Shown piece after piece: positions 10,276-51,090 of a stretch of DNA of 64,000 nt. A model generated the notes under the pieces. The model saw only the letters and a list, made by a program, of their open reading frames with translations. It made no database searches and had not been told where the DNA came from. Origin of the DNA: Streptomyces uncialis (GTDB lineage: Bacteria > Actinomycetota > Actinomycetes > Streptomycetales > Streptomycetaceae). Positions within the stretch are counted from its first letter, which is position 1. Every line of letters starts with the position of its first letter. The translations under genes and the position numbers were made by a program. The DNA is taken from contig NZ_CP109583.1 in the NCBI RefSeq assembly GCF_036250755.1, forward strand, positions 7,868,001 through 7,932,000, read 5' to 3'.

Positions 10276-10290
10276 TCAGGAAGCGGTCGG

Positions 10291-10971: not shown

Positions 10972-11027
10972 GGCCGTCTCCCTCGTGCTGGTGCTGACCC
11001 GGGGGCCCGTCCGGCCGCTCCGGTCAC

Positions 11028-11056
11028 TTGCCGTCGTTATTGCACTAGTGCATAAT
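11028..11056 (+). promoter_or_regulatory. MocR gene promoter overlapped by palindromic operator
   Basis: TTGCCG at 11028-11033 and CATAAT at 11051-11056 are separated by exactly 17 bases, a good sigma-70-type promoter. The perfect palindrome TGCACTAGTGCA (11041-11052) overlaps the spacer and the -10 box. This suggests repression by the MocR protein itself. A related half, TTGTGCTAG, follows at 11062-11070. A start site near 11062 fits the GTG start at 11085. Confidence 0.65.
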
Positions 11057-11084
11057 GCTTTTTGTGCTAGGAGAATATCCCATC

Positions 11085-14557: not shown

Positions 14558-15148
14558 ATCGAACTCCTTGCGCGCCGGCCGTCTGTCACGGCCGGGACAG
14601 GACCCGCCGACGGGGTGTGCCGGACGGGCAGAGATTCCGGTGCGGTGTGCCGTCGGCTCCCTTCCGAAGGGCTCGGAGTCCGGGTGGCCCCGTGGTGCGC
14701 GAGTGACGCGCTCCGGCTCGGGGGACCACCGGGTCGGGAGGAGATCGGTACGGCGGGAAGCGTGACACCGCTGGGAGCCGTGCGCCAGAAGGGGCACCGG
14801 AGGCTTGGCCGTATCCCACTCGTGGCGCGGGACGGGCGGCGTGGGAGCCGCACCTGTCCGGAGGTGGTCGCACGCTTCCCGGGTGACCCGGGCCGCGAGG
14901 AGGGGGCATCCGTACGGGTACTGGCCGGAAGGGTTCGCGCGCGTGGAAAGGTTCGCAGCTGTGTGGACGGGTTCGCGGCGGCAGCGGGAAGGGGGACGGC
15001 GGCGCGGCGTGGCTCCGTCCCCCTTCCCGCGGACGACGGCGGCGCGGCGCGGCTCCGTCGCTCACCGGGGAGCCGCCCGGAACCGCTCGCCGGTGCATCG
15101 CGGTCCGGGGCGGGGGCGCCGGTGCGGGCCGCGGATAGACTCGTCGCC
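14558..15148. other. Intergenic region with hairpin and short direct repeat
   Basis: This divergent spacer of 591 bases lies between the M4 protease and AraC genes. GGGAAGGGGGACGG (14986-14999) pairs with its complement at 15015-15028. A near-exact repeat, ACGGCGGCGCGGCG(T/C)GGCTCCGTC, occurs at about 14995 and again at about 15035. TAGACT just before the AraC ATG is a plausible -10 for a leaderless message. No gene is supported. Confidence 0.5.
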
Positions 15149-29352: not shown

Positions 29353-29668
29353 TGTGTTCCCTTCGGTCAAGTTGACGAGCTCTGATCAACAATCCGGGAA
29401 CTTATGCGATCCGAACATGTGCCTGCAAGACCGTATAACTGGAGCCCACTCCTCCATTTATGAGCGTTTTTGAGACCCGGAGCAATACTCGAAAACTGTG
29501 GATCGGCGACGGGTGACCCGCGAAAGGGATACCTTGCCGAATGGTCCTGGGACGGTCATCGATTCCCTCCCTGTCAGCCTTGGGTGAGACTTCCCGCTTC
29601 GGCGGGTGAGCCTGAGAGGGCACCGACAGGAGAACCACCCCGTCATGATCAGCACCAAGCCCGCCTGA

Positions 29669-31285: not shown

Positions 31286-31489
31286 TCAGGCGCTTGTCAC
31301 GTTCTCGGCCTGGGGGCCCTTGGGCCCGTCGGTGACGTCGTACTCGACCGCCTGGCCCTCGTCCAGGTTCCGGAAGCCGGAGGCATTGATCGACGTGTGG
31401 TGGACGAACACCTCCGCGCCGCCGTCGTCCGGAGTGATGGCACCGTAACCCTTCTCCGCGTTGAACCACTTCACCGTTCCTGTAGCCAC
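31286..31489 (-). CDS. CspA family cold-shock protein
   Basis: This 67-residue single cold-shock domain reads [23 protein letters not shown]1 is GYGAI, and RNP2 is the variant VFVHH. Cold-shock proteins bind single-stranded RNA/DNA as chaperones. GTG at 31489 has AGGAGAG upstream. In RNP1 the usual aromatic after GYG or GFG is replaced (AI instead of FI), which may weaken stacking. It is one of three csp genes in this window; it lies amid accessory DNA, unlike the other two. Confidence 0.92.
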
Positions 31490-31686
31490 GCTGCTCTCCT
31501 TCTGCGATTCCTGGACGGCTCCACACGACCAGACGCTGCCTGGAGCCGGGCAGGCGGACCGGTACGGCCACCGCCATCAGGGACAACGAGCCGCGATGCT
31601 CAACGACTCGGCCGCCCGTCCAACGTTCCCGCCGAAACCCGCCCCACCGACCCATTCCGTGAGGTCGCTGCTGGGTGCTCGCACCT

Positions 31687-31960
31687 GGACAAGATCCGCC
31701 GCTACGGCTCACACACCGGCCACCTCGGAGGCGGGGACCTCACCGCCGACCTCGCCCTCCCCCTCGAACAACCGCCCCCACCCGGCAGCCACACCCTGCT
31801 CATCGGAGATCGCCGAGGCCCTCGCCCGCACGACGTTCTCTTCCTCCACGACGACCCGCGCCGGTTCGCGGCGTACGAACGGCGGTTCGGGGCCCCCTAC
31901 CCGGCCGGGCGCACGGTGGATCCGCTGTTCACCCAGCTGCACCGGCGGACGCGGTCCTAG
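31687..31960 (+). pseudogene. Fragment of a second KASIII-like gene
   Basis: The frame contains LDKIRRYGSHTGHLGGGDLT and QPPPPGSHTLL, nearly identical to the C-terminus of the KASIII-like gene encoded at 34794-35777 but on the opposite strand. Homology ends near 31806. The frame then runs into unrelated sequence (RPHDVLFLHDDPRRFAAYE) and stops at 31960. It shows that a paralogue once sat here, or that part of the cluster was rearranged. Confidence 0.7.
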
Positions 31961-32956: not shown

Positions 32957-33847
32957 TCAGGAGCCTGGGGCGACAACGTAGCGTCCGGATGCGGCAGGCA
33001 GGAGCGCGGCGATCTCCCCCAGGACCCGGGCCGCCGGTGCCGGGTCGACCAGCCACTTCAGGTGGCTGCTGGTGAGTGTGCGGACGTCGTAGGGGGTCTT
33101 CGGTGTCAGCTTGTTGCCCTCGCGGATTATCCGGTCCTGCATGGCGAGCGGCATGCTGGTGTCCTCGGTCAGCCGGATGTACGTCTTGGGGATCCGCCCC
33201 CAGGTGTCGGCCTGTGCCCGGTCGTCGGGTGAGCCGACGTCGAGGTTCTCGTCGGGCTGGAAGGTGTTGAGGAAGACCATGAACTCGCCGTCTGTCCCGT
33301 CGGCGAGGAAGGCCGCTTTGAGGGCCGCGAGGGCGCCGGGGTCGGCGGTGCGGAAGTTGGAGCGCAGCAGCCCGAGTTCGGCAGGGTTCCCGACCATCGC
33401 CGATGCCACTCCTGTGGTGTCGACCGTGGCCATCTCGGGCTCGGCGTAGTAGGCGCTGACGTCGAGGTCGACGGGGCACCAGGCGGAGACGTAGACGATG
33501 CGGTCGATCAGGTCGGGCCGCTGGTTGGCCGCGACGGTGGCGGTCATGCCGCCGCGGCTGTGGGCGACCAGGATGACGGGCCCGTTCCGTCTGGCGCGCT
33601 CCAGCGTCCCGATGAGATGCGCGGCGTTGTCGGCGAGCGTGACGCCCTTGACGGCCCCGGGCGCGGTGGCGAGCTCTTCGAGGTCCTGCGGCGCCTGATA
33701 GGCGCGCGGGTACGTCGCGGCGAATCCGTGCCCCGGCAGGTCGACGGCGACGGAACGGTGCCCGAGGAGGCCGAGTTCGGCTTGGAGCGGTGCGAACGAG
33801 AAGGAGTTCGCGAAAGCTCCGTGAACCAGTACGAACGTCGGTTGCAT
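32957..33847 (-). CDS. Alpha/beta hydrolase
   Basis: This 296-residue hydrolase of the esterase/salicylate-esterase-like group starts MQPTFVLVHGAFANSFSF. The oxyanion region is HGAFANS, the nucleophile Ser is in ILVAHSRGG near 100, and the catalytic His is probably in the SSHLKWLVDPA segment near the end. ATG at 33847 begins directly on the first beta strand; the longer frame upstream has poor coding quality. The substrate is unknown. It lies just outside the polyketide cluster and could act on its ester products, but this is only positional. Confidence 0.85.
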   Translation of the reverse strand: MQPTFVLVHGAFANSFSFAPLQAELGLLGHRSVAVDLPGHGFAATYPRAYQAPQDLEELATAPGAVKGVTLADNAAHLIGTLERARRNGPVILVAHSRGGMTATVAANQRPDLIDRIVYVSAWCPVDLDVSAYYAEPEMATVDTTGVASAMVGNPAELGLLRSNFRTADPGALAALKAAFLADGTDGEFMVFLNTFQPDENLDVGSPDDRAQADTWGRIPKTYIRLTEDTSMPLAMQDRIIREGNKLTPKTPYDVRTLTSSHLKWLVDPAPAARVLGEIAALLPAASGRYVVAPGS

Positions 33848-34161
33848 CTGTCTGCTCTCTTTCTGGGCCCCGTGGCGCCCGGCGGCATGCGCATCGCCCT
33901 TTCCGGCGCCGCACACCACCTCGCGGCCGGGGCCGGGGAACGAGTCGTCGCCCGTTGCCGCCCGGCGGCAACGCGTATCCGCCCGGCCGTTGTCACCAGG
34001 TGGCACCTGTTCGGGGCATCAACACCACGGCCAGGGACACCGCAAGTTGCTGCGCCGTCCGGGTATGCGCGATGCGAGGCCCTTGCCCGCGGCCGCAGCG
34101 GCGGTCGGCGCCGAGCTGCACCTCCGGCACTCCGGGCACTCCTCCGAGTTGGTGTCGTGCG
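33848..34161. other. Intergenic region, nothing recognised
   Basis: The 314 bases between the hydrolase start and the downstream stop of the next gene hold no supported gene or clear hairpin. Promoter boxes for the hydrolase were not identified. Confidence 0.4.
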
Positions 34162-34680
34162 TCAGTCCTGCGAGGTACCCATGGAGTCGAAGGTCTCGCG
34201 CATCAACTGGTCGATGGTGCCCGGCTTGTCGGCCAGGGAGTCGAAGAGGTCCGCGAGCAGCCACAGCACGAAGCCGTGGATTATGGCCTCCTTCGGCTCG
34301 ATCGGCCCGAACCGGTCGCGCCAGGCCACGGTGTCCATGCCCATGGCGGCGGCCATGAGGACACCGGTGGCCATCGGCACCTGCTCCGGGTCAGCCATGT
34401 CGAAGGTGGGCAGTTTGCGGATCACCGCGGGGATGAGGTCGGTCAGCGGATCGAACTGCTCCCCGCCGCCGGGCGGCTCGCCGATCAGGTACCCGGTCAG
34501 GACGCCCACCAGGAACACCGTGCCTCGGGAGACCTCCTCGCGCCCGACGGAGTCCGCCGCAGCCTTCACTCGTTGCTGCGCTTCTTGGCGCTCCTTGGCG
34601 GGCGTCCGCTTCTCCAGGACCCGGTAGGTGTCCCACGCCGCGCGGACCGCCTCATCCACCACTACACCGTCGTTGCTCAT
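34162..34680 (-). CDS. Hypothetical helical protein
   Basis: This 172-residue protein starts MSNDGVVVDEAVRAAWDTYR. It is acidic and largely helical, with a moderately hydrophobic stretch (GTVFLVGVLTGYLIG, about 52-67) and another (IIHGFVLWLLADLFDSLADK, about 135-155). I do not recognise the family. Codon use is normal for the genome. It is 113 bases downstream of the KASIII-like gene on the same strand, so it could be the last gene of that operon, though nothing ties it to polyketide chemistry. Confidence 0.65.
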   Translation of the reverse strand: MSNDGVVVDEAVRAAWDTYRVLEKRTPAKERQEAQQRVKAAADSVGREEVSRGTVFLVGVLTGYLIGEPPGGGEQFDPLTDLIPAVIRKLPTFDMADPEQVPMATGVLMAAAMGMDTVAWRDRFGPIEPKEAIIHGFVLWLLADLFDSLADKPGTIDQLMRETFDSMGTSQD

Positions 34681-34793: not shown

Positions 34794-35777
34794 TCAGGCG
34801 CGTACGACGAGGCAGGTGGCGCAGTAGCCGGCTCCGACGCTGACGAGCAGGGTGTGGCTCTCGGGTGGGGGTGGTTGTTTGAGGGTGAAGGCGAGGTTGG
34901 CGGTGAGGTCGCCGCCCCCGAGGTGGCCGGTGTGGGAGCCGTACCGGCGGATCTTGTCCTGGAGGGGGGCGGGAAGGGCGGGGCGGATGGTCCAGTCGAT
35001 GAAGGTCTGGCCCAGGAAACAGGGGAGGACCGAGTCGATCCCGGGGGCGTCGGGGCTGAGGTGGGCGTCGTCGAGGGCGTCGTCCACGGCGTGCTTGACG
35101 CAGGCCCGCATGCGCTTGAGGACGTCCTGTTTGCGGAAGGGGGAGCCGTTCGGGTCGGGGGGCTGGAGTCCGAACGGGTCGCGGCCGGGGAAGTCGGGTT
35201 CGAGGCTGGTGTCTCCGTGGCCCGCGATGGATTCGATGAGCAGCGGGCCCGGGGAGGGGGTGAGGACGACGGCGGTGGCGCCGTCGCCGAGGGGGCCGCC
35301 GTCGGAGAGCGGGGACCAGCGCCCTTGGGGGACTTCGTTGAACTTGTCGGCGGTGGTGATCAGGGCCGTGGTGGTCCGGGGGTCCGTGGCGATTTTGGTG
35401 AGGGCTGTTTCGATCGCGGTGGCTCCGCTGTTGGACTGCTGTTGCAGGCCGAACGCCATGCAGTGGTGGGCGCCGGTGAGCCGGGCGACGCGGTGGGCCG
35501 GGCTCCAGACCCCCTCGCCCTGTTCGTAGACCCAGCAATGGATGTGGAGGTCCACGTCGTCGGGGGTGAGACCGGCGTCCTCAAGAGCGGTGCGGGCGGC
35601 TTCGGCGGCCATGCTCGAGACCGTGCGGTCATGGCAGACGGCCAGTTGGGCGAAGCCTTCGGCCTCGGCGGCACGCAGTCGGATGACTCCGGACGCGGCG
35701 GCTTCCTCGGCTGTGGAGGCGGTTTGGGGCAGCCAGAGCGCGGCTGCGTTGATGTAGAGGGGGATGTCGGTTCTCAC
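34794..35777 (-). CDS. KASIII-like (thiolase-fold) protein lacking the catalytic cysteine
   Basis: This 327-residue protein has the ketoacyl-ACP synthase III fold: EAARTALEDAGLTPDDVDL in the N-half and RYGSHTGHLGGGDLTANLA replacing the usual GNT region. Where KASIII enzymes have ACSG, this reads LQQQSNSGA (111-119), so the nucleophilic Cys is Ser or Asn. The HQAN histidine motif is also absent (LPCFLGQTFIDW). It may act as an acyltransferase or a non-condensing partner, as reported for other divergent KASIII proteins. It lies with P450 and ACP genes, divergent from the PKS. Confidence 0.8.
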   Translation of the reverse strand: MRTDIPLYINAAALWLPQTASTAEEAAASGVIRLRAAEAEGFAQLAVCHDRTVSSMAAEAARTALEDAGLTPDDVDLHIHCWVYEQGEGVWSPAHRVARLTGAHHCMAFGLQQQSNSGATAIETALTKIATDPRTTTALITTADKFNEVPQGRWSPLSDGGPLGDGATAVVLTPSPGPLLIESIAGHGDTSLEPDFPGRDPFGLQPPDPNGSPFRKQDVLKRMRACVKHAVDDALDDAHLSPDAPGIDSVLPCFLGQTFIDWTIRPALPAPLQDKIRRYGSHTGHLGGGDLTANLAFTLKQPPPPESHTLLVSVGAGYCATCLVVRA

Positions 35778-35954: not shown

Positions 35955-37229
35955 TCATGGCCGCTGTCGCGCCGTGCCGAGGGTGACGGGGAGGGTGGTG
36001 AGGCGGCGGTTGAGGGTGGCGCCCTGCCAGGTGAGGGCGTCGGGTTCGGTGGCGAGCGCGATGGAGGGGTAGCGCCGGAAGAGGGCGCGCAGGGCGATAC
36101 GTCCTTCCAGCCGGCCGAGGTGCGAGCCCAGGCAGTAGTGGGGTCCGTGGCCGAAGGACATCAGCTGGGCCGCGTTGGGGCGGTCCGTGCGGAAGTCGTC
36201 GGGGTGGGGGAAGACGCCGGGGTCCTTGTTGGCGGCGGCGAGCGAGAGCAGCACGAAGGCGCCTGCTGGGATGGTGGTGCCGCCGACCTCAACGGGTTCT
36301 GTGGTGAAGCGCCAGCCCGCGGTGAACAGGGGTGCGTGGTGACGCAGGAGTTCCTCGACGACTGCCTGGGCGCTGTCGTCGTCGGTCAGCAGGGTGCGTC
36401 GGATGTCGGGGTGCTCGATCAGCAGGGCGGTGCCGTAGGCGATGAGCGTGGCGGTGGTTTCCAGCCCGGCGGCGGTCAGGAGCGAGATCATTGCCTGGAT
36501 CTCCATGCGGGTGATCCGGTCTCGGCCGTGGGCTTTCAGCAGCACGGTGATGAGGTCGTCGCCCGGGTCCGTGCGGCGTCGTTCCATGGCCTCTCTGACC
36601 AGGTCGAACTGTTCGAGGAGGGCGGCGTGCATGGGTTCGCTGTCCGGGGGGTCGGGTTCCCCGAGCCTGGCGGTGACGTCGGCAAGCGGTGCGCGGAGGT
36701 CGGCCGGGACGCCGAGCAGGGTGCTCATGACGTCGCTGGCCAGGGGGCGTGCGTAGTGGGCGACCACATCGGCGGGGTCCTGGCCGGCGAGGTCCCGCAA
36801 GGCGTTCTCGGCCGCGGCTTCGATCATCGGCCGCTGCGGCTGGACGGCCGCGTGGCTGAGAAGGGGGGAGACCTGCCGGCGCAGGCGGTCGTGGTCGGCG
36901 CCGTCGATGTTCATCAAATGGCGCCCCCGCACGGCCAGTCCGTCCTCGGGGTAGCGGGTGCGGCCGAGGCCGCAAGGGGGTTCGGGGATCTCGCGGATGT
37001 CGAGGGTCAGTCGTTGGTCGCCTGCCAGGGCGCGTGCGGCGTGGTGATCGGTGACGAGCCATGTGTGCAGGCCGCCGGGGAGGACGACCGGGTGGACCGG
37101 TCCGGTGTCGGCGAGATCGCGGATGGCGGTGGGGAACGCCTCATGGGGGAAGGCGGCGTCCATCAGATGCCGGTTCCCGCCTGTCCGGGCGGGGCAGACG
37201 GCCGGGGTCGGCTGGTCCGGGGAGGTCAT
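35955..37229 (-). CDS. Cytochrome P450
   Basis: This 424-residue soluble bacterial P450 has its I-helix at LTAAGLETTATLIAYG (about 250), with Glu-Thr as the oxygen-activation pair. The ExxR motif is EELLRHH, and the heme loop is FGHGPHYCLGSHLGR (Cys near 366). The ATG overlaps the ACP stop (ATGA), so the two are translationally coupled. The P450 probably hydroxylates or oxidises the PKS product, possibly while it is bound to the free ACP. The ferredoxin partner is not encoded nearby. Confidence 0.92.
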   Translation of the reverse strand: MTSPDQPTPAVCPARTGGNRHLMDAAFPHEAFPTAIRDLADTGPVHPVVLPGGLHTWLVTDHHAARALAGDQRLTLDIREIPEPPCGLGRTRYPEDGLAVRGRHLMNIDGADHDRLRRQVSPLLSHAAVQPQRPMIEAAAENALRDLAGQDPADVVAHYARPLASDVMSTLLGVPADLRAPLADVTARLGEPDPPDSEPMHAALLEQFDLVREAMERRRTDPGDDLITVLLKAHGRDRITRMEIQAMISLLTAAGLETTATLIAYGTALLIEHPDIRRTLLTDDDSAQAVVEELLRHHAPLFTAGWRFTTEPVEVGGTTIPAGAFVLLSLAAANKDPGVFPHPDDFRTDRPNAAQLMSFGHGPHYCLGSHLGRLEGRIALRALFRRYPSIALATEPDALTWQGATLNRRLTTLPVTLGTARQRP

Positions 37230-37510
37230 GGCCCGCTCCCGGCTTTGGCGGCCAGCAGGGCACGCAGATCACCGACCGTGCGCAGATCGAAGAGTTCTTC
37301 GTCGCTGAAGGCAACCGAGAACTCTTTCTGTATGCAGGTCATGGCCCTGAGCAAGCCCAGGGAGTCCACGCCCGGCAGGTTGAGCAGCGGACGGTCGTCC
37401 TCTTCCGTGACGGTCCCGTTCCATTCGAACTCCCGGTCCAGCAACCGGTGCAGACGTTCCTGGAGGTGCGGCGCGAGCGCCGCCTGGTTCTGCTTCGGTG
37501 GGGGGTTCAT
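37226..37510 (-). CDS. Free-standing acyl carrier protein
   Basis: This 94-residue ACP has its phosphopantetheine attachment serine in LPGVDSLGLLRA (about residue 52). Helices LAPHLQERLHRLLDREF and FSDEELFDLRTVGDLRALLA follow the fold. The ATG at 37510 has AGGAGAG about 14 bases upstream. It overlaps the P450 start by 4 bases and is the first gene of the operon facing away from the PKS. It could carry the chain after release from the PKS for P450 or KASIII-like processing. Confidence 0.88.
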   Translation of the reverse strand: MNPPPKQNQAALAPHLQERLHRLLDREFEWNGTVTEEDDRPLLNLPGVDSLGLLRAMTCIQKEFSVAFSDEELFDLRTVGDLRALLAAKAGSGP

Positions 37511-38016
37511 GCGGCACACACTTCTCTCCTGCGGAAAGGCCGTGAGCGGGGCCGGTGACTTCCTGCACGTGGTCCCGCGGTGTCCGGGACGTTCAAGGGG
37601 ATGTCGGGCCGACAGGCACGGTTTTTTCGACCCTACGCTTGTCCGCCGGGGGATTCGCGCTGAGCGGGGAGGGGCCGCGTGACAGGCACCTGTTCTCCGG
37701 GGGTCGCCTCCGCTGATCTCTGCGGGTCGCTTCCGTAGCGGTGGCGTGCAAGCATGGATACGCACTTTCCCGGCATTTCATCCCGTATGTCACTGGGGTC
37801 GGGGAGGCGGTCACAGGGGTCGCGTCGATGGCGACCCGTCGCCTCGCGATGAGGCGAAGTCGACTTTTCATGCACCGGTTGCCCGACCGGCCCGGTTCCC
37901 GGCCGGTCGAGTCCGCCAACGGAGCGGCCGATCCAGGATTCACGCCGGACACCTGACGCGAACGCGGTCGTCGGCCTGATTCATCAGGTGAACATCTGTC
38001 CTGCGAGGAGAATCCG
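37511..38016. promoter_or_regulatory. Divergent promoter region of polyketide cluster
   Basis: This 506-base spacer lies between ACP and PKS genes. CCTGATTCATCAGG (37975-37988) is a 6+2+6 palindrome 28 bases before the PKS ATG and could be a repressor site. A small stem CGCCTC/GAGGCG lies near 37840. GAGGAG sits at ideal distance before 38017. The sequence TTTTTTCGACCCTACGC near 37625 may hold the minus-strand -10 (TAGGGT when read on that strand). No regulator gene is present in the cluster. Confidence 0.5.
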
Positions 38017-41000
38017 ATGGCCGCGCATTCCATCCGGCAGAACGGCCGCGGTGCCCCTACCCGTGGTGAAGCGGCGATGTCCGCCGAGTACCCGGCCCGT
38101 TCCACCGAACCGCAGGACGCGGTCGCCGTCGTCGGGCTGGGCTTTCGCGTGCCGGGAGCCATCAACAGCCGCGAGGACCTGTGGCGCACCCTGAACGCGG
38201 GCAAGGATGTCCTCACGCCGGTACCGCCCGAACGCTTCGATCCCGAGCGGTTCTTCGACCAGGACACGCAGCACGAGGGCAAGACGTACTCCACCACCGG
38301 CGCGTTCCTCGACGACATCAGCGGATTCGACGCCGACTACTTCGGCATCTCCCCCAAGGAAGCATCCCGGGTGGACCCCCAGCAACGGCTCCTGCTGGAG
38401 TGCACGGTGGAGGCCTTCGACGACGCCCAGCTCGACTCCGCCGCACTGGCGGGCAGCGACACGGCCGTGATCATCGGGGTCTCCGACCGCAACTACTACG
38501 AACTCCAGGTCCGCCGGCTCAGGACCATCAACGCCTATGCCATGAGCGGGTCGGCGTCCTGCAACACCGCCAACAGGATCTCCTACGTCTTCGACTTCCA
38601 CGGCCCCTCGTTCGCCGTCGACAGCGCCTGCTCCTCCACCCTGACCGCGGTGCACCACGCCTGCGAGGCGATCCGTACCGGGCGCAGCACGCTGGCAGTC
38701 GCGGGCGGGGTCAATGTGATGCTCAACCCGGCCGACTTCATCGGATTCTCCAAGGCGTCCATGCTCTCGCGCACGGGACGCTGCCATCCCTTCTCGGCGG
38801 GCGCCGACGGGTATGTGCGCGGCGAGGGAGTGGGTGTGTTCGTGCTGAAGGCGCTGCGTGCGGCGATCGCCGACGGTGACCGGATCGAGGCCGTGATCGT
38901 GGCCAGTGCGGTCAACGACGACGGCACGACGTCGGGCCTGTCCCTTCCCAGCGCCACCTCGCAGCAGGAACTCCTGGAAAGCGTCTACACGCGGGCGGGC
39001 ATCGATCCGGAACGGGTCGCCTACGTGGAGGCACACGGCACCGGGACCCCGGCCGGAGACCCGCTGGAGTGCCAGGCGCTGGGCCGGGCCCTGGGCAGCC
39101 GAAGAGCGCAGCCGCTGCTGATCGGCTCGGTGAAGTCGACGCTGGGACACCTGGAGGCGGCGTCCGGGGTCGCCGGGCTGCTCAAGGCGATGCTCGTCCT
39201 GCGCCACGAGACGATCCCCGCCACGCTGCACGCGCTGCCCCTCAACGACGAGATCGACTTCACCGGTCTCGGGCTCGAACCCGTCACCTCCCCGCGCCCG
39301 CTGCCGCTCGCACCGGACGGAGTGCTGGGGGTGAACTCCTTCGGGTTCGGAGGCGCGAACGTCCATGTCGTTCTCCGGGCCGCGCCCGTAGCCGCGCCGG
39401 TCGACAGCGGGCGCGGGGAAGCCGACAGCACGCGCGGGGAAGGCGAGCTGCCGGTGATGACCTCGGGCGCCACCGAAGCAGCGGCCAACGAGACGGCCCG
39501 GCTGCTCGCCGATCACCTGGAATCCGTTCCGGACGACTTCTACGACATCGCCTACACGAGCTGTCTGCGCCGTACACGGCGGGAGCACCGGGCGGTGGTC
39601 CTGGCTTCGGACGCGGCCCGGGCGGCGGCCGGCCTGAGAGCTCTGGCCGCCGGCGACGAGCCGGTCGCGGGCAGCGCCCGGGGAACCGCCGAACGGGACG
39701 GGAGCTCGGTGGGCTTCGTCTTCAGCGGCAACGGCTCCCAGTGGCCCGGTATGGCCAGGGACCTGCTGGCGGCGGACGAGGCATTCCTGAGCGAGGTCGC
39801 CCTCATCGACGGAGAGTTGCTGCCCCGGCTGGGCTGGTCGGTCCTGGAGGCGCTGCGCCGCCCCGTCGGCGCGCCGGAACTTGAGCGCACCGAGGTCGCT
39901 CAGCCGCTGCTCTTCGCGGTGCAGGGCGGACTCGTCGCCTCGCTGGCGGCTGCCGGTATCACCCCGGCGGGAGTCACCGGCCACAGCGTCGGCGATGTCG
40001 CCGCCGCCTACTGCTCGGGCGCCCTGAGCCGGGCCGCCGCCTGCCAGGTCATCGCGGAGCGCAGCCGGGCCCAGAGCAGGACCGCGGGCAGCGGGCGGAT
40101 GGCCGCGATCGGACTCGGCCCCGCCGCCGCACAGGAGGCGCTCATCCCGTTCGGCGAACGGCTGGTGATCGCCGGGATCAACGGGCCCGATGCCGTCACC
40201 GTGTCCGGCGCGACGGCGGCGATCGCGGAACTGGGCAGGGCACTGGAGGCGCGGGAGGTGTTCTTCCGCGAACTGCCCCTGGACTACGCCTTCCACAGTG
40301 CGTCCATGGATCCCGTGCGGGAGGTGCTGCTGGATTCGCTCCAGGACCTCCCGGGGCGTCCGTCCCGTATCCCGATGGTCTCCTCGACGACGGGCCGGGT
40401 GGTGGACGGTCCGGACCTCGACGCGGAGTACTGGTGGCGCAACATCCGCGAACCCGTCCGCTTCACCGACGCGCTGGACACACTGCTGGACGGCGGCTGC
40501 ACGGTACTGGTGGAGATCGGCCCCCACGCCGCCCTTACCCCGTATCTGCGCACCGGCACCGTACGACGGCCGGAACAGGTCACCGTCCTGTCCACACTTC
40601 TGCGCGACCAGGCCGGCCCGCCGCTGATCCGCTCGGCGATCGCCGCGGTGCTGGCCACCGGCGCCACCACCGACTGGACTCCCTTCTTCCCGGTCCGCGG
40701 CCGTGCCGTGCCCCTGCCCGCCTACCCCTGGCAGCGCGAACGGCACTGGTCCGGCGAGCCGTCATGGTGGGAGGAGTCCGCCCAGCAGGACGCCCCGGCC
40801 CGAAAGCATCCGCTGCTCGGTGAGCGGCTGCCCACCCTCGACCCCGCCTGGCACCAGCAGCTGGAGCCGGGCCCGCTCGCCTGGCTCACCGACCACAAGG
40901 TGGGCAGCGCCGTGGTGCTTCCCGCCGCCGCCTACGTCGATGTCGCCCTCACCGCCGGGGAGAATGCCCTCGACGCGGCGGCCGAAGTCACCGACCTGTC

Positions 41001-44000
41001 CATCGACGCCGGGCTCACGCTGCCCTTCGACGATCCCGCGATGGACATCCGCCTCCAGACCACGGTCGCCCCCGGCGGCCGGTGCACCATCGCCAGCCGT
41101 GACGGAACCTCAGGCCCCTGGCGGGAACTGGTCCACTGCCGGGTACAGCGACTCACCCTGCCGCAGCCGCCTCCGCTGGACCTGGCCGCCATCCGGGCCA
41201 GGACCACCCGCCGCCAGACCCGAGAGGAGCACTACGCCACCTGCGCCCGTGCCCAGTTGCCCTACGGGCCGGCGTTCCGGCCGCTGACCGCACTGGCGGT
41301 CGGCGAGACCGAGGTGCTCGCCGACTTCACGGCTCCCGTCCCCCCGTCCGGCCGGCACACCGCCGACGTGAGCGTGCTGGACGGCGCCCTCCAGTCGGGC
41401 GTGCCGCTGCTGGCCACCGAGGGCGACACGGTGGTGCCCTACCTGCCCTCCGGGTTCGCCGCCGTACGGTCGTGGACGGACCTGCCCGCCACCGGACACG
41501 TACACGTCACGGGTCGGCGCGGGGACCGGACCGAGCACACCTGGGATCTGACCGTCACGGACACCGACGGCAACGTGGCCCTGGAAGCGATCGGCTGCCG
41601 GCTGCGCCGCTTCAACGCCGCCGAACCGGCCGCCCCCTCGCTGCTGGCCGAAGTCCTGCGCGCCGCCCCCCTGCCCGGCACCTCGGCACGCCCCACCCCG
41701 CTGCCCTCCCCGCAGGAGACGGCCGCCGCAGACATCTGGCCGGATGGACCCGGCGACCAGCACCTGCACGACTTGACCCACTTCCGCACCGGTGTGGTGG
41801 ACACCGCCGCCCACAGCATCGCCCGCGCCCTCACCGACATCCTCGGCGCGGACCGACCTCTCAGCGTCCCGGCGGTGCTCGCCACCGGAGTCCACCCCAA
41901 GCACTCCCGCTGGCTCACCGCACTGTGCCGCCTGGCCGAGGCACGCGGGGTCCTGCGCGCTACCGGACAGGACACCTGGCGGATCGCCACCGAACCCGCA
42001 CTCGAACGCATCGTCCAGGAAACACTCACCGCCCACCCCTCCATCGGCGCGGCCCTGTACCCCTACGCGGTCACCGGACTCCACTACGCGGACATCCTGC
42101 ATGGCCGGATCGACCCCCTGGAATTCCTCTTCTCCGTCGACAACCTCGCCTCACGGGTCTACGACTTCACCCCCAACCTGGTCTACCAGTACCGGCTGGC
42201 CCGCAATCTGCTGCGGGCGTCCCTGAAGAACTGGCCGCCGGGCCGGCCGCTGCGGGTGCTGGAGGTCGGAGCCGGCACCGGCGGGCTGACCGCCGCCGTC
42301 CTGCCCGTGCTGCCTCCCGAGCTCACCCGCTTCACCTGCACCGACATCTCGCCCGCCTTCTTCCCGCACTGCCGCGAACGCCTCGCCGCCCACGACTTCG
42401 TCGACTACCTGCGCCTGGACCTCGACCAGGACCCCACTGAGCAGGGCTTCACCCCGGGCAGCTTCGACATCGTCCTGGCCGCAAACGCCCTGCACACCGC
42501 CCGTGACATGGACCGCACCATGCGCTACGTCTCCGGTCTGCTGGCCGACCACGGCCACCTCCTGGCGATCGAGTCGCACAACCACGACGTCGCCACCCCC
42601 GTCTTCGGCATGCTCGACAGCTATTGGGACTACGAGGACACAGCACGGCGTCCCGACGGCCCCATGCTGTCCTGGGAGGAATGGCGCACCCTGCTGGAAG
42701 CCAGCGGTTTCGATACCCCGGTCCAGCTCGGCGACCACGCCGATCCGGACCTGCGCGACTACTCCCTCATCCTCGCCGCCGCCTCACCGCACCAGGACAC
42801 CAAGGCCCCGGGACCGGCCCACCCGGCACCCGAGCGGACCGACCCGCAGGACACGACCCGCTGGCTCATCGCCGCCACGGGCACCGCCCACGGCCGAAAC
42901 GCCGCTCTCGCCCGCGAACTCGCCGAGACCCTGCCCAACAGCCCCGGCCTCCCCCATGGCACACAGCTCATCGAGGACGCCGACGACCCCGGCTCCTGGA
43001 CCAAGGCGATGCGGTCCTCACCCGGACCCACCTCCCTCGTCCTCATCGGCGGCGACGAACACGACAGGACGACGGAGCAGGACACAGATCCGCAGGCACT
43101 CACCGACGAGGCCATCCGCCAACTGGGCACCCTGCGAACCCTCGCCCAGGTCCATCAGCACCACACCGACACCGACCGGACCGGTCTGTGGCTCATCACC
43201 CGCAGCACCGCCCACACCCCGGAACACCCTCCCGGCGAACCGGTCGCCGCCGCGCTCTGGGGAGCCGCACGAAGCCTGGCCAACGAGTTGCCGACCACCC
43301 CGGTGCACCGCATCTCTCTCCCCCTGCCGGAGGGATCCCCCGACCCGGTCGACGCGCTGGTCGCCGAACTGAGCACGCCGACCGAGGAGGAAGAAGTCCT
43401 CCTCACCCCCGAAGGGCGCTTCGTTCCCCGAGTGCAGAACCTCCCCGCCCCCACCCGCCCCAGCAGCCACGGAACCTCCCAGCGGTTCACCCTCGAAGTC
43501 CCCGCCTGCGTACCGCACTACGAATTGCGCTGGAAGGCGGTCCCGCCCCTGGTACCGCCACCCGGCCAGGTGGTGATCGCCGTCGAAGCGGCAGCCCTGA
43601 ACTACCGGGACATCATGACCGTGACCGGCCGGGTGCCCGCACCCCCCAGAGCCCCCGACGATCCGACCAGCCCCCTGGGGATGGACTGCGCGGGAACCGT
43701 CCAAGCCGTCGCCGACGATGTCACCACCCCTTCGGTGGGGGACAGGGTCGCCGGGATCAAGGTGGGCTGTTTCGGCTCCCACGCGGTGCTGCGCGCCGAC
43801 CGGCTCATCCCCGTACCCGACACCCTGCGCAGCACGGAAGCGGTCACCCTGCCCGGCGTCTTCATCACCGTGGAGCTCGCCCTGCGCCATCTGGCCCACC
43901 TGAGCCGGAACGAAACCCTGCTCGTCCACTCGGGCGCCGGCGGCGTGGGAATGCTCGCCGTCCAGTACGCACAGCGTGTCGGCGCCACCGTCATCGCCAC

Positions 44001-45615
44001 CGCCGGCACCCCCGGCAAACGGGACCTGCTCCGCCTCCTCGGCGTCCGCCACGTCCTGGACTCCCACACCCTCGAATTCGCCGATCAGATCCGTGAGATC
44101 ACAGGCGGCGAAGGCGTCGACGTCGTCCTCAACTCCCTCGCCGGGGAAGCTCTCGCCCGTAGTGTCAAACTTCTCAAACCCCACGGCCGCTTCATCGAAC
44201 TGGGCAAACGGGACTTCCTTGCCGACAGCCCGCTCCTCCTCGCCCCCTTCCTGAACAACCTCACCTTCTTCGGCGTCGACGTCGCCCCCCTGCTCACCGA
44301 GTACTCGCCCAGCGGCGACGCCCTCGTCCGCTCCCTGGCCGACGCCGTACGGACCGGCACCGCGCACCCGCCGCCCCACCAGGTGTTCCCCGCCTCCCGC
44401 ATCGGCGAGGCATTCCAATCCATGGAACGGTCGCGTCACATCGGCAAAGTCGTCATCGACCTCACCGACACCGTCCCCGTACACACCGCACCCGACCCGG
44501 CCCCCCTCGACCCCGACGCCGACTACCTCATCACCGGCGGCCTCGGCGGCTTCGGCGCGGCCACCGCCCGCCACCTCGCCGGCCGGGGAGCCCGCCATCT
44601 CACCCTCGTCAGCCGCAGAGGCCCCGACGCCCCCGAAGCGGAAGCACTCCTCGCCGATCTGCGGCACGGCGGCGTCAGCGTCACCGCCCACGCCGCCGAC
44701 GCCGGTGACTACGAGGCGATGGACACCATCGTCACCGGTATCACCGCCGCGGGCAGACGTCTGGCCGGAGTGGTGCACGCCGCGATGGTCCTCGACGACG
44801 CCCCGTTCACCGAGTTGACCGACGAGCGCCTCACGAAGGTCCTCGCGCCCAAACTCACCGGCGCCCTCATCCTGGACCGGCTCACCAGCGGACTCGATCT
44901 GGACTTCCTGGCCCTCTACAGCTCCGTCACCGCGCTCACCGGCAACACCACGCAGGCCGCCTACAGTGCCGCGAACCTGGCTATGGAAAGCCTCGCCCGC
45001 AGACGCAGGCGCGAGGGCGCACCCGTACTCGCCATCCAGTTCGGGGTCATCTCCGACGCCGGGTTCGTCCACCGCGACCAGACCGGCGGGACCCTGGCCG
45101 CCCGGGGAATGACCGGCACCACCGCCCGCGAAGCCCTCCAGAACCTGGACCGGCTCCTCGCCCAACCTCCCGTATATCTGCCCAGCCCCGCCATCGCCCT
45201 CACCCACATGGACTGGGCCACCGCCGCCGGCTTCGTCAGCACCCTCACCGCCCCCCGGACCGCCGGACTCCTGCCCCCGCAGGACGACACGGCCACTCCC
45301 CTCCTCCGTGAACAACTCACCCACGCCGACCCGGAAGAAGCAGCCGACCTCGTCGAGAACGCCCTGCGTGAGCTCCTCGCCGCGACCCTCAGAACCACCC
45401 CCGACCACATCCGCACCAACCGCCGCCTCGACCAGATGGGCGTCGACTCCCTCATGGCCACCGAACTCAGCACCGCCATACGCAACACCTTCGCCTGCGA
45501 ACTCCCACCCGTCGAACTCACCAACGCCGCCGACCTCACCGCCATCACCCACCGCGTCCTCACCCGCCTCAACCTCCAGCAGGAACCCACCCCTGGCCCG
45601 TCTTCGCAGACCTGA
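38017..45615 (+). CDS. Single-module highly reducing type I polyketide synthase (KS-AT-DH-MT-ER-KR-ACP)
   Basis: This is a 2532-residue megasynthase. KS (about 33-455) has the active Cys in VDSACSST, with HGTGT and STLGHLEA. AT (about 565-860) has GHSVGD and a YAFHSASM specificity segment. DH (about 925-1200) has DHKVGSAVVLP and LDGALQS. The C-methyltransferase (about 1330-1580) has VLEVGAGTGGLT. ER (about 1836-2143) has HSGAGGVGMLAVQ, and KR (about 2165-2400) has GGLGGFGAAT, an LDD motif and AAYSAANLA. ACP has MGVDSLMA (about 2473). No thioesterase is present. All catalytic residues checked are present. The order matches fungal highly reducing synthases, suggesting iterative use. Confidence 0.95.
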   Translation: MAAHSIRQNGRGAPTRGEAAMSAEYPARSTEPQDAVAVVGLGFRVPGAINSREDLWRTLNAGKDVLTPVPPERFDPERFFDQDTQHEGKTYSTTGAFLDDISGFDADYFGISPKEASRVDPQQRLLLECTVEAFDDAQLDSAALAGSDTAVIIGVSDRNYYELQVRRLRTINAYAMSGSASCNTANRISYVFDFHGPSFAVDSACSSTLTAVHHACEAIRTGRSTLAVAGGVNVMLNPADFIGFSKASMLSRTGRCHPFSAGADGYVRGEGVGVFVLKALRAAIADGDRIEAVIVASAVNDDGTTSGLSLPSATSQQELLESVYTRAGIDPERVAYVEAHGTGTPAGDPLECQALGRALGSRRAQPLLIGSVKSTLGHLEAASGVAGLLKAMLVLRHETIPATLHALPLNDEIDFTGLGLEPVTSPRPLPLAPDGVLGVNSFGFGGANVHVVLRAAPVAAPVDSGRGEADSTRGEGELPVMTSGATEAAANETARLLADHLESVPDDFYDIAYTSCLRRTRREHRAVVLASDAARAAAGLRALAAGDEPVAGSARGTAERDGSSVGFVFSGNGSQWPGMARDLLAADEAFLSEVALIDGELLPRLGWSVLEALRRPVGAPELERTEVAQPLLFAVQGGLVASLAAAGITPAGVTGHSVGDVAAAYCSGALSRAAACQVIAERSRAQSRTAGSGRMAAIGLGPAAAQEALIPFGERLVIAGINGPDAVTVSGATAAIAELGRALEAREVFFRELPLDYAFHSASMDPVREVLLDSLQDLPGRPSRIPMVSSTTGRVVDGPDLDAEYWWRNIREPVRFTDALDTLLDGGCTVLVEIGPHAALTPYLRTGTVRRPEQVTVLSTLLRDQAGPPLIRSAIAAVLATGATTDWTPFFPVRGRAVPLPAYPWQRERHWSGEPSWWEESAQQDAPARKHPLLGERLPTLDPAWHQQLEPGPLAWLTDHKVGSAVVLPAAAYVDVALTAGENALDAAAEVTDLSIDAGLTLPFDDPAMDIRLQTTVAPGGRCTIASRDGTSGPWRELVHCRVQRLTLPQPPPLDLAAIRARTTRRQTREEHYATCARAQLPYGPAFRPLTALAVGETEVLADFTAPVPPSGRHTADVSVLDGALQSGVPLLATEGDTVVPYLPSGFAAVRSWTDLPATGHVHVTGRRGDRTEHTWDLTVTDTDGNVALEAIGCRLRRFNAAEPAAPSLLAEVLRAAPLPGTSARPTPLPSPQETAAADIWPDGPGDQHLHDLTHFRTGVVDTAAHSIARALTDILGADRPLSVPAVLATGVHPKHSRWLTALCRLAEARGVLRATGQDTWRIATEPALERIVQETLTAHPSIGAALYPYAVTGLHYADILHGRIDPLEFLFSVDNLASRVYDFTPNLVYQYRLARNLLRASLKNWPPGRPLRVLEVGAGTGGLTAAVLPVLPPELTRFTCTDISPAFFPHCRERLAAHDFVDYLRLDLDQDPTEQGFTPGSFDIVLAANALHTARDMDRTMRYVSGLLADHGHLLAIESHNHDVATPVFGMLDSYWDYEDTARRPDGPMLSWEEWRTLLEASGFDTPVQLGDHADPDLRDYSLILAAASPHQDTKAPGPAHPAPERTDPQDTTRWLIAATGTAHGRNAALARELAETLPNSPGLPHGTQLIEDADDPGSWTKAMRSSPGPTSLVLIGGDEHDRTTEQDTDPQALTDEAIRQLGTLRTLAQVHQHHTDTDRTGLWLITRSTAHTPEHPPGEPVAAALWGAARSLANELPTTPVHRISLPLPEGSPDPVDALVAELSTPTEEEEVLLTPEGRFVPRVQNLPAPTRPSSHGTSQRFTLEVPACVPHYELRWKAVPPLVPPPGQVVIAVEAAALNYRDIMTVTGRVPAPPRAPDDPTSPLGMDCAGTVQAVADDVTTPSVGDRVAGIKVGCFGSHAVLRADRLIPVPDTLRSTEAVTLPGVFITVELALRHLAHLSRNETLLVHSGAGGVGMLAVQYAQRVGATVIATAGTPGKRDLLRLLGVRHVLDSHTLEFADQIREITGGEGVDVVLNSLAGEALARSVKLLKPHGRFIELGKRDFLADSPLLLAPFLNNLTFFGVDVAPLLTEYSPSGDALVRSLADAVRTGTAHPPPHQVFPASRIGEAFQSMERSRHIGKVVIDLTDTVPVHTAPDPAPLDPDADYLITGGLGGFGAATARHLAGRGARHLTLVSRRGPDAPEAEALLADLRHGGVSVTAHAADAGDYEAMDTIVTGITAAGRRLAGVVHAAMVLDDAPFTELTDERLTKVLAPKLTGALILDRLTSGLDLDFLALYSSVTALTGNTTQAAYSAANLAMESLARRRRREGAPVLAIQFGVISDAGFVHRDQTGGTLAARGMTGTTAREALQNLDRLLAQPPVYLPSPAIALTHMDWATAAGFVSTLTAPRTAGLLPPQDDTATPLLREQLTHADPEEAADLVENALRELLAATLRTTPDHIRTNRRLDQMGVDSLMATELSTAIRNTFACELPPVELTNAADLTAITHRVLTRLNLQQEPTPGPSSQT

Positions 45616-46731: not shown

Positions 46732-47250
46732 ATGCGCGAAACCCCGGAAGAACTCGACAAGCTCCAGTCCCTCCTCGACTCCTCCCTCTCCGGCTCGACC
46801 GCACACCTCCGCTCGATCGTCGAGGGCCGCACCATCACGGCGGCGCAGCTCACCGGGGTCCTCACCGGCATGTGCACGCTCGCCCTCTCCACGGTGACCG
46901 CGAAGGGCGAACCGCGGATCAGCGGCGCCGACGGGCACTTCCTGCACGGCCGGTGGCACTTCGGCACGGCGCGCAACGCCGCCAAGGCGCGTCATCTCGC
47001 GGCCCGTCCGGCCGCCAGCGTCGCGCACATGCGCGGCGAGGACCTCGGCGTGTTCACCCACGGCACGGTGGAGGAGATGAACCCCGAGGACGCCGGGACC
47101 ACGGCCGACTGGCAGGAACTCCGCGCCTACTTGAAGGACTTCTACAACGACGACGCCTTCGACTGGAACCGCGAGGTCGTCTACTACCGGCTGAACCCGC
47201 ACTGGACGACCGTCTACGCCCCCGACCTCGACAAGCTCACCGGCCCGTGA
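46732..47250 (+). CDS. Pyridoxamine 5'-phosphate oxidase-like (FMN split-barrel) protein
   Basis: This 172-residue protein has the split-barrel core: MCTLALSTVTAKGEPRISGA, DGHFLHGRWHFGTARNAAKA and HLAARPAASVAHMRGEDLGV. ATG at 46732 closely follows GACGAT, consistent with a leaderless message. The reducing partner and substrate are unknown; many relatives bind F420, FMN or heme. Its 3' end overlaps the convergent RhoGDI-like gene by 14 bases. Confidence 0.82.
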   Translation: MRETPEELDKLQSLLDSSLSGSTAHLRSIVEGRTITAAQLTGVLTGMCTLALSTVTAKGEPRISGADGHFLHGRWHFGTARNAAKARHLAARPAASVAHMRGEDLGVFTHGTVEEMNPEDAGTTADWQELRAYLKDFYNDDAFDWNREVVYYRLNPHWTTVYAPDLDKLTGP

Positions 47251-47800
47251 CGCCGGGACCGTCGACGAGGACCTGCACCTGCGCGTACGTGGGTGCGGGG
47301 CCGGTCGACGGCGCGCCCTCGCGTACCGCCGGCACCGTGGCGACAGCCTCGCCCAGCGCCCGCCGGTACAACAGCGACCCGAGGCTGCCCCGCCCCCAAG
47401 CTCTCAACTCCGCTTCGCTGCGCTCGAGCAGGGGGCCGCTCGGCGTCTTGCACCGGTCGGAGCGGGGAACCGTGTACTTGTGCAGTGCCGCCTGCGGGCC
47501 GAACGCGCCCAACAGCGCCTGCTCCTTGCCCACCTTGATGCGCTGGCGGGAGGTGGCCGAGACGTACGTGAGGCCCGAGATGATGTCGTGCCGCACCTGG
47601 AAGGCGTAGCGGAGCTTGTAGTGGCTGCCCTCGGTGAGGGTGAACCCCTTCTCCTTCAGTTCGGCGAGCGCCTGCGGGTCGTCCAGCTGCCAGGTGGTCG
47701 GGGTGCCGCCCTCGCTCTCCAGGGTCAGCGACCGGAGGACCAGCCGCCGTCCGTCGTCCGCCGCCTGCGCCACCGTGCTGCTCGTCTCCTGCTCGGGCAT
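47237..47800 (-). CDS. RhoGDI-like beta-sandwich protein with altered C-terminus
   Basis: This 187-residue protein starts MPEQETSSTVAQAADDGRR; GAGGGAG precedes the ATG. From about residue 19 to 125 it aligns by eye with the immunoglobulin-like domain of eukaryotic Rho GDP-dissociation inhibitors. LVLRSLTLES, EGSHYKLRYAFQVRHDIISG, LTYV, IKVGKEQALLGAFGP and TPSG match RhoGDI LTLVCS, EGVEYRIKISFRVNREIVSG, MKYI, VKIDKTDYMVGSYGP and APKG. After TPSG the normal last strands (FTDDD ... HLSWEW) are missing, replaced by sequence from a palindromic repeat. Bacteria lack classical Rho; the lipid-pocket role is unknown. Confidence 0.6.
   Translation of the reverse strand: MPEQETSSTVAQAADDGRRLVLRSLTLESEGGTPTTWQLDDPQALAELKEKGFTLTEGSHYKLRYAFQVRHDIISGLTYVSATSRQRIKVGKEQALLGAFGPQAALHKYTVPRSDRCKTPSGPLLERSEAELRAWGRGSLGSLLYRRALGEAVATVPAVREGAPSTGPAPTYAQVQVLVDGPGVTGR
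47393..47435. repeat. Palindromic REP/MITE-like element inside coding sequence
   Basis: CCCCC..GCTC (47393-47403) pairs with GAGC.GGGGG (47426-47435) around a CTTCGCTGCG-containing loop. Sequences of the form CCCCCAAGCTCTC ... CTTCGCTCGAGCAGGGGG are, as I remember, dispersed intergenic repeats in Streptomyces genomes. Here one is read in frame within the RhoGDI-like gene, encoding LLERSEAELRAW. Confidence 0.65.
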
Positions 47801-48231
47801 GTCGTCTCCCTCGGTTGTCGGGCCGGGCCGGCCGGGTGCGCGGCCCGCATCGCAGGAGAACACGGTGGTCTCCCCTGCTTCCGGCCCTCGCCGGGCCATG
47901 GCCCGGGCCCCGCCCCGTTGATCTGGAATCCGCCGGCCGTACCCGCCTGGCGTGCCGTTGCTCCTCACCGGGGCTGTCCGGCCGGGCGGCCGTCCGGTGC
48001 TCCCGCGCTGCCTGCCCGGCTGCTGTCTGGCGGCGGTGCCGCTCTCCCCCGGGGGGCGACTCTCCTCTTCTCCTCCGGGCGAGCCTGGGCAGGGCCCCGG
48101 TCTCATGCGAAAGGGTGGTGGCCGTCCGACCCGCCCCGGCACGGCGTCGCCACCGGCCGGGGCGGCGGTGGGATGAGGACAGCACTCCGGCCGGCGAGAG
48201 CCGGGGAACCTCCCAGGGGCGGAAGACCATC
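47801..48231. other. Intergenic region, no gene supported
   Basis: This spacer of about 430 bases lies between the divergent RhoGDI-like gene and the small protein encoded at 48232. Reading frames across it lack coding character. It is GC-rich without a clear hairpin, and presumably contains both promoters. Confidence 0.4.
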
Positions 48232-48678: not shown

Positions 48679-48888
48679 GTGGCTACAGGCACGGTGAAGT
48701 GGTTCAACGCGGAGAAGGGGTACGGCTTCCTCTCCCAGGACGACGGCGGCGCGGACGTGTTCGTGCACTTCGCGGCGATCGAGGCCACCGGGTACCGGAG
48801 CCTGGAGGAGAACCAGCGGGTGGAGTTCGAGGTGTCGCAGGGCCAGAAGGGTCCGCAGGCGGAGAGGGTACGCCTGTTGCAGTCCTGA
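48679..48888 (+). CDS. CspA family cold-shock protein
   Basis: This 69-residue cold-shock domain reads [20 protein letters not shown], with RNP1 KGYGFL and RNP2 VFVHF intact. GTG at 48679 (MATGTVKWF) is preferred over the upstream ATG at 48670, because GAAGGG lies 8 bases before it and the MATGTV start matches other family members. It acts as an RNA chaperone. A hairpin terminator follows the stop by 20 bases, so it is monocistronic. Confidence 0.93.
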
Positions 48889-49460: not shown

Positions 49461-49524
49461 GTCTCGGGCGAAGCAGCGGAGGCAGCCCCGAAGGTGGGGC
49501 TGCCTCCGCTGCTTCGCCCGAGAC
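49461..49524 (+). terminator. Perfect 29-bp stem terminator
   Basis: The left arm at 49461-49489 (starting GTCTCGGGCGAAGCAGCGG) is the exact complement of 49496-49524, with a 6-base loop GAAGGT. It begins 24 bases after the PepSY stop. No T-run follows. The length and perfection exceed usual Streptomyces terminators. Confidence 0.85.
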
Positions 49525-50886: not shown

Positions 50887-51090
50887 ATGGCGTCTGGCAC
50901 CGTGAAGTGGTTCAACGCGGCCAAGGGTTTCGGCTTCATCGAGCAGGACGATGGCGGCGCTGACGTGTTCGCCCACTTCTCGAACATCGCCGCCGAGGGC
51001 TTCCGTGAGCTGCTCGAAGGCCAGAAGGTCACCTTCGACATCGCGCCGGGCCAGAAGGGCCCGACGGCCGAGAACATCGTTCCCGCCTGA
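50887..51090 (+). CDS. CspA family cold-shock protein
   Basis: This 67-residue protein has [20 protein letters not shown], with intact RNP1 (KGFGFI) and RNP2 variant VFAHF. It is the canonical Streptomyces cold-shock protein form. CAGGGAG precedes the ATG. The AT-rich leader upstream and the strong terminator downstream (51106-51149) mark an independent transcript. It heads a block with DEAD helicase, CBS and SCO5918-type genes, the gene set I associate with SCO5918-5921 in S. coelicolor. Confidence 0.95.

Follow-up and report, generated by a model that had tools for sequence, protein, structure and literature searches.

A single-module highly reducing polyketide synthase of Streptomyces uncialis with a KSIII-fold acyltransferase and a cytochrome P450 as neighbors

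Introduction

A 64-kb stretch of the Streptomyces uncialis genome (contig NZ_CP109583.1, positions 7,868,001 to 7,932,000; hereafter the window, numbered from its first letter) encodes a highly reducing type I polyketide synthase (PKS) that consists of a single module. Its neighbors are divergent genes for a cytochrome P450 and for an acyltransferase of the ketosynthase III (KSIII) fold. Several described systems resemble parts of this locus.

Gene deletions in sgaAB of Pseudomonas fluorescens MYb115 established that C24–C28 sphinganines depend on an iterative PKS together with an oxoamine synthase, and SgaB condenses serine with acyl-CoA surrogates (PMC12134224). SgaA, a monomodular iterative PKS, is comparable to the window PKS, and sgaAB includes a separate enzyme that accepts its product (PMC12134224). 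However, this partner is a pyridoxal phosphate (PLP)-dependent α-oxoamine synthase, and none was found beside the window PKS among the 41 other open reading frames (ORFs; up to 59.3 kb) scanned with Pfam. The single aminotransferase match in these ORFs is a GntR-type protein (11055–12395), about 26 kb away.

ChlB1 is an iterative type I PKS without a thioesterase (TE) that is unloaded by the KSIII-fold acyltransferase ChlB3, and similar acyltransferases are listed for other pathways (PMC9573744). The pair proposed here would likewise combine an iterative type I PKS that lacks a TE with a KSIII-fold acyltransferase. However, ChlB1 makes an aromatic product, and ChlB3 uses a cysteine and delivers to a discrete ACP, a protein for which the single ACP motif pattern used gave no match in the window. 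The closest solved sequence to the window acyltransferase is DpsC of daunorubicin biosynthesis (PDB 4xs7, 5wgc), which has the same Ser-His-Asp triad and fold, but whose partner is a type II PKS (PMC12664062).

Among other iterative bacterial enzymes, CA_C3355 of Clostridium acetobutylicum is a single-module type I PKS that is iterative and highly reducing in vitro; it is described as KS-AT-DH-KR-ACP, without a C-methyltransferase (cMT) or ER (PMC5686105). The actinobacterial Jaw4 and Pfl1 are iterative type I PKSs that build the fatty-acid-like chains of polycyclopropanes, but are organized as KS-AT-DH-ACP with a separate KR and cyclopropanase, and in Pfl also a separate TE (PMC13389473). P0007, P0014 and P0048 of an actinobacterial single-module family have the seven domains of the window PKS in the same order at 50–55% identity over 98%. 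Mycocerosic acid synthase (MAS) is a single-module iterative reducing synthase that has no cMT and obtains its methyl branches from methylmalonyl. MAS (PDB 9d2y) is the highest-scoring solved relative of the window PKS, but differs from it in that no cMT was matched between DH and ER and its KS is placed elsewhere. A MAS-type synthase was rejected, given the cMT of the window PKS and a KS apart from that of MAS in the trees described below.

Iterative type I PKSs in Streptomyces have reportedly been surveyed by Wang et al. (PNAS 2020). Searching by architecture notation, we found no paper on a bacterial KS-AT-DH-cMT-ER-KR-ACP PKS; this is weak evidence, as it covers the open-licence literature only, where the listed papers with such notation deal, to judge from their titles, with fungi, a yeast host or general methods. 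The same literature yielded no paper for phrases on bacterial highly reducing PKSs, no characterized bacterial member with the full domain set, and no report of serine KSIII-type release of reduced polyketides.

Domain organization and conservation of the PKS

The PKS gene and its domains are as follows.

38017..45615, + strand: PKS gene (ORF P0001, ATG start, 2532 aa), single-module highly reducing type I PKS, KS-AT-DH-cMT-ER-KR-ACP
38116..39378, + strand: KS domain, residues ~34–454 (Pfam-A matches 34–282 and 292–405; Cys205, His340, His378)
39715..40623, + strand: AT domain, residues 567–869 (Pfam-A; motifs GHSVGD and YAFH)
40807..41631, + strand: DH domain, residues 931–1205 (Pfam-A matches 931–1025 and 1052–1205)
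41974..42876, + strand: cMT region, residues 1320–1620 (Pfam-A methyltransferase 1415–1515; S-adenosylmethionine (SAM) motif at 1414)
43561..44457, + strand: ER domain, residues 1849–2147 (Pfam-A ADH_N 1849–1935, ADH_zinc_N 1976–2088)
44521..45054, + strand: KR domain, residues 2169–2346 (Pfam-A)
45361..45546, + strand: ACP domain, residues 2449–2510 (Pfam-A; sole match to the ACP motif pattern in the window)

The protein is one complete module on one polypeptide, with a KR/DH/ER set that carries its catalytic residues. The KS match is preceded by 33 residues and the ACP match followed by 22. The 19 Pfam-A families that match the protein at E≤0.001 include no thioesterase model. The top two NCBIfam models (type I PKS and phthioceranic acid synthase) score far under their cut-offs.

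Conservation was assessed in 159 PKSs, comprising the window PKS, 40 genes from the fetched loci described below and 118 proteins; P0010 was left out, and the same gene may occur in both the locus and the protein sets. Eleven residues are invariant in all 159: Cys205, His340, Lys373 and His378 of the KS, Ser657 of the AT, His960 and Asp1122 of the DH, Lys2279, Ser2303 and Tyr2316 of the KR, and Ser2478 of the ACP. His1493 (152 of 159) and Glu1519 (157) of the cMT and Lys2064 of the ER (144) are nearly so. We take these motif residues to have the catalytic roles assigned to them. The DH motif, HKVGS, departs from the textbook motif at a position where the latter has glycine; this position varies among the relatives (glycine in 74/159). 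The AT motif YAFH is present in 134/159 and is, in our assessment, intermediate between the textbook malonyl and methylmalonyl motifs.

A contig of S. uncialis DCA2648 is 99.15% identical to the window across 22.8 kb. The two PKS copies differ by 22 synonymous and 10 codon-changing substitutions, and the low pN/pS (0.17) suggests that the PKS is retained as a functional gene, as does a GC content at third codon positions of 0.88. The 9.26-Mb genome has 37 KS matches and several modular PKS loci; one KS match falls in the window, with no second one within its 64 kb, and the next nearest is ~537 kb away. The initial annotation had described a one-gene KS-AT-DH-cMT-ER-KR-ACP synthase with intact catalytic residues and no thioesterase, the sole PKS of the window, and the ORF, its Pfam-A domains, the conserved motifs and the genomic KS matches agree with it on each of these points.

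Distribution of the architecture

A search of 5.8 billion proteins, in which 7979 candidates sharing the most words were scored, gave 4011 matches at E≤0.001, and the best 120 of them were examined (119 besides the window's own protein). The seven-domain order is the same in 118 of these 119. The lone exception is P0010, in which KS-AT-DH-MT is followed by what looks like a frameshift. The taxa named among the matches listed are Streptomyces, Kitasatospora, Actinomadura, Saccharothrix, Nocardia and the myxobacterium Archangium.

Within Streptomyces, a 410-aa cMT piece was used to query 295 genomes and matched in 64 of them at E≤1e-30. Sixty matches reach at least 154 bits; 49 of these sit in frames of 2400 aa or more (2462–2940), spread over 38 of the 295 genomes with our own counted, and the frames of the other 11 are shorter. 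Among the 46 matches with lower scores, 32 belong to frames longer than 4000 aa, i.e. modular ones. We fetched 39 loci, 35 as stretches of 40 kb and the remainder of 20–34 kb, which cover 40 of the 48 full-size matches outside our own genome. All 40 genes have the same domain order (the AT match of G241b is split in two pieces), and in 36 of the 39 loci the single-module gene is the only PKS-like gene among the called ORFs. In the three exceptions, G163a has a second copy in tandem, G048 a DH-ER-KR frame at its edge, and G090c an isolated KS of 407 aa. A scan of genome contigs with a cMT-ER piece returned three loci, namely S. uncialis and two distant matches (32%) to the ER part. Thus, PKSs of this architecture are not rare in Streptomyces and usually stand alone.

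Genes near some of the 39 PKSs include thioester-reductase-type, thioesterase, MMPL transporter and AMP-ligase genes; these counts rest on clusters, with one representative each named by Pfam. MMPL transporter-type genes recur beside 10 of the 39, which suggests lipid-like exported products for part of the family.

Phylogeny of the KS and cMT domains

Three KS trees were computed: FastTree with 202 sequences, FastTree with 72, and fast IQ-TREE with 72 (SH-aLRT). The input consisted of the PKS family, the modular and other KSs of our genome, PKSs from plasmid records, LovB, CurL and MAS, without SgaA or the characterized iterative Streptomyces PKSs, and the KS segment of a trans-AT PKS served as root. 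Supports were taken from unrooted splits and are given in the above order.

The family, including members from four plasmid-collection records, forms a clade (0.999/1.0/79.1), which is joined by single-module PKSs of Pseudomonas and Caballeronia (0.97/0.967/95.1). Only in IQ-TREE does another KS of our genome, L185, fall inside this wider group, joined to the family at 88.7. The next clade (0.987/0.989/86.6) adds three KSs from other PKSs, two from our genome (L174 and L175, at ~8585 and ~8821 kb) and one from a Methylosinus plasmid (L189); one of the three is of the KSQ type, with glutamine replacing the active cysteine. The modular extension KSs, MAS and CurL lie outside these clades. The closest KS relative of the window PKS is P0010 of Streptomyces yaizuensis (0.998/0.999/98.5), while P0007 is weakly placed (0.415/0.225/69.5). 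The window KS therefore belongs to a bacterial single-module clade, apart from modular cis-AT extension KSs. The two outgroup genes, L014 (8989–17842 of a Pseudomonas plasmid) and L186 (3989–13901 of a Caballeronia plasmid), have PLP aminotransferase, SDR and LTA-synthase neighbors, an sgaAB-like context that links them to that system by context. Of the two PKSs, that of Pseudomonas contains the full set of seven domains.

The fungal highly reducing PKS LovB (PDB 7cpx), the one fungal sequence compared, matched in KS and cMT, and presumably has the domain order of the window PKS up to the ACP. Its KS lies with the modular KSs and MAS in both FastTrees and branches just outside the family group in IQ-TREE (support 23.5); it groups with the family in none of the three. 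In a tree of 75 cMTs, 52 family members and one Nonomuraea sequence split from the rest at 0.974. The LovB cMT falls between the family and 20 lower-scoring, mostly modular Streptomyces cMTs (support 0.371). At 29% identity, no other of the 74 cMTs compared resembles the window cMT less.

The initial annotation had called the PKS fungal-style and uncommon in Streptomyces. The domain order justifies the first term, but a special link to fungi finds no support in the one fungal sequence compared, LovB, which groups with the family in no KS tree. The second is contradicted by 38 positive genomes of 295 and by the order common to 118 of the 119 relatives examined. The KS phylogeny that it had asked for shows that the window KS does not join the modular extension KSs of its own genome.

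The acyltransferase, the P450 and their co-occurrence with the PKS

The region upstream of the PKS contains the following features.

37230..38016, no strand: 787-bp intergenic stretch that separates the divergently oriented genes of the P450 and the PKS (ORF coordinates)
35955..37229, − strand: cytochrome P450, 424 aa (S. yaizuensis relatives 60% and 49%)
34794..35777, − strand: KSIII-fold acyltransferase, DpsC/CerJ/ChlB3/NatS group, 327 aa (S. yaizuensis relatives 70% and 49%)
34162..34680, − strand: ORF of 172 aa without a Pfam match, putative cluster member
32957..34006, − strand: alpha/beta hydrolase, candidate cluster member
31684..31804, + strand: 121-bp inverted remnant of the acyltransferase 3′ end (89% to 34842–34962)

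The 787-bp stretch presumably holds the promoters of both the P450 and the PKS. The P450 keeps the sequence FGHGPHYC, which we read as its heme-cysteine motif. The acyltransferase is assigned to the DpsC/CerJ/ChlB3 type by predicted fold and triad: the model, computed for a database copy (P0126) that differs by at least one residue from the window protein, has a KSIII (thiolase) fold nearest to this subgroup, and a Ser-His-Asp triad (Ser115 as the predicted nucleophile, His285, Asp290; numbered from the start Met) takes the place of Cys-His-Asn.

The PKS, the P450 and the acyltransferase each have two relatives in S. yaizuensis, on contigs of equal length (about 655 kb) that are apparently one and the same, and the set seems to be doubled there. 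No KSIII-type match was found in the 39 other PKS loci (stretches of 20–40 kb), and P450-like ORFs occur at 14 of them. Relatives of the KSIII-type gene itself (E≤0.001) are present in 225 of 295 Streptomyces genomes, with serine and cysteine mixed as nucleophile across the related sequences. With the S. yaizuensis protein as query, eight of 392 Streptomyces genomes match at E≤1e-45 (our genome at 70%, the seven others at 37–42%), and at E≤1e-80 only our genome does, as one of 395 relatives (a sample overlapping the 392). The window protein matched 25 plasmid records, one of them, unlisted, at 80–90% identity and the others below 60%. The relative G094 (C1, near 67 kb and 100 kb) carries rearranged remnants of the KSIII gene and the PKS at 85–90% DNA identity, with positions near the contig start (L048, ~15139–15554; L161, ~10182–11345), and seems to have lost the three-gene set.

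Proposed function

We consider it probable that the locus encodes an iterative highly reducing PKS whose chain is moved by the acyltransferase, more likely off the synthase than onto it, and is oxidized by the P450. Membership of the PKS in the bacterial single-module family is well supported, as is its iterative use over a role in a split assembly line, since the module stands alone, most related loci have a single PKS, and the KS lies off the modular clade. Of iterative use and partners elsewhere, both of which had been left open initially, the former is thus favored. The domains and key residues of the PKS, its family, the predicted fold and triad of the acyltransferase and the S. yaizuensis relatives of all three genes are observations; iteration, the substrate, the direction of acyl transfer, the P450 target and the product are what we infer.

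The PKS would elongate over several rounds on its one ACP. The units are probably malonyl, as a cMT is present, with methyl groups from SAM; the choice of extender is uncertain. Reduction to a varying degree would give an acyl chain that is saturated in part or throughout and probably carries methyl branches. Iterative reducing synthases apply cMT and ER selectively, so the pattern of reduction and methylation is unreadable from the domains; these permit the saturated, methyl-branched chain predicted earlier, but that prediction was overstated. Since the PKS has no TE, a releasing partner is required, and unloading is our first choice because ChlB3 unloads the TE-less iterative ChlB1. The acyltransferase would accept the acyl group on its serine and hand it on, more likely unloading the finished chain to an acceptor than loading a starter. 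If so, the acceptor is probably a hydroxyl or amine made elsewhere, as no discrete ACP was matched in the window. The P450 may oxidize the chain or its conjugate. A narrower version, in which the serine-type enzyme passes a methyl-branched chain from the PKS straight to a hydroxyl acceptor before P450 oxidation, is offered only tentatively.

Several observations weigh against the favored scheme. ChlB3-like transfer from ACP to ACP would find no local acceptor, and the motif YAFH leaves the choice of extender unsettled. The Caballeronia PKS, one of the two nearest outgroups, has no cMT match. The PKS family generally does without a KSIII-type enzyme, as there is none in the 39 other loci, and a KSIII-type gene beside a PKS is by itself unremarkable, given relatives in 225 genomes, so that only the close S. 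yaizuensis pair ties the two together. The shared S. yaizuensis contig is itself deduced, with gene order unread. Finally, DpsC is a priming enzyme (PMC12664062), and a serine triad would suit loading as well.

This last point leads to the strongest alternative, which we regard as possible but unlikely: the same iterative PKS is primed by the DpsC-type enzyme with an unusual starter from CoA, such as propionyl or a branched acyl group, and the product is released by the hydrolase at 32957–34006 or by an unlinked enzyme. A Ser-His-Asp triad defines DpsC-like primers, which acylate themselves and pass the acyl group to an ACP (PMC12664062), and DpsC is the nearest solved sequence. Candidates for release exist as well, since the alpha/beta hydrolase lies two genes beyond the acyltransferase and the genome has 19 thioesterase-family matches elsewhere, with none in the window. 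However, accounts of DpsC-like priming concern type II systems (PMC12664062), the known case of a KSIII-like enzyme paired with an iterative type I PKS lacking a TE is one of unloading (PMC9573744), and the mixture of serine and cysteine among related sequences means that serine alone leaves the direction unfixed.

It is improbable that the P450 and KSIII genes are chance neighbors of a PKS that acts alone and is released by unlinked enzymes. The lack of KSIII-type matches at the 39 other family loci, the P450-like ORFs at only 14 of these, the divergent orientation of the two genes, with no operon shared with the PKS, and the frequency of KSIII-type genes in the genus would all fit this view; but all three genes have two close relatives each in S. 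yaizuensis, apparently on one contig. Still less probable is that the PKS contributes a single extension module to an assembly line whose other proteins are encoded elsewhere, although the genome holds several modular loci. The nearest other KS is ~537 kb away, the 22 residues beyond the ACP match would be short for a docking domain, the KS is outside the modular extension clade, and 36 of 39 related loci, an indirect check on partner modules elsewhere, likewise have the PKS standing alone. Uptake of the PKS from a fungus is the least credible, since the shared domain order, the weakly supported position of the LovB cMT on the family side of the split from the 20 Streptomyces cMTs and one IQ-TREE branch are set against a GC content at third codon positions of 0.88, the LovB KS among modular KSs and MAS in both FastTrees, the dissimilar LovB cMT, and named relatives that are all bacterial among the 119 listed.

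Other features of the window

Several other features were observed. The ORF at 47237–48142 (− strand) matches the Rho-GDI domain (PF02115, E 4e-22), a eukaryote-type domain in a Streptomyces gene, and the protein at 27736–29370 (− strand) combines an RHS repeat with a C-terminal prokaryotic phospholipase A2 domain. A family of ~187-bp repeats, 73–79% identical, occurs at 31303–31489, 48679–48865 and 50888–51075, and at two of these three places the repeat overlaps a small ORF of ~70 aa. A 64-bp near-palindrome (49461–49524) is 91% identical to its own reverse complement.

Conclusions

The PKS itself is of a known kind, and what is new here is its combination with a KSIII-fold acyltransferase and a P450. 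Reducing PKSs with these domains in a single module are frequent in Streptomyces genomes. The locus is a compact system of one synthase, one acyltransferase and one P450 in a non-pathogenic Streptomyces, and a second species apparently has two versions of each. Should the acyltransferase prove to release the chain, it could become a tool for making esters of reduced polyketides.
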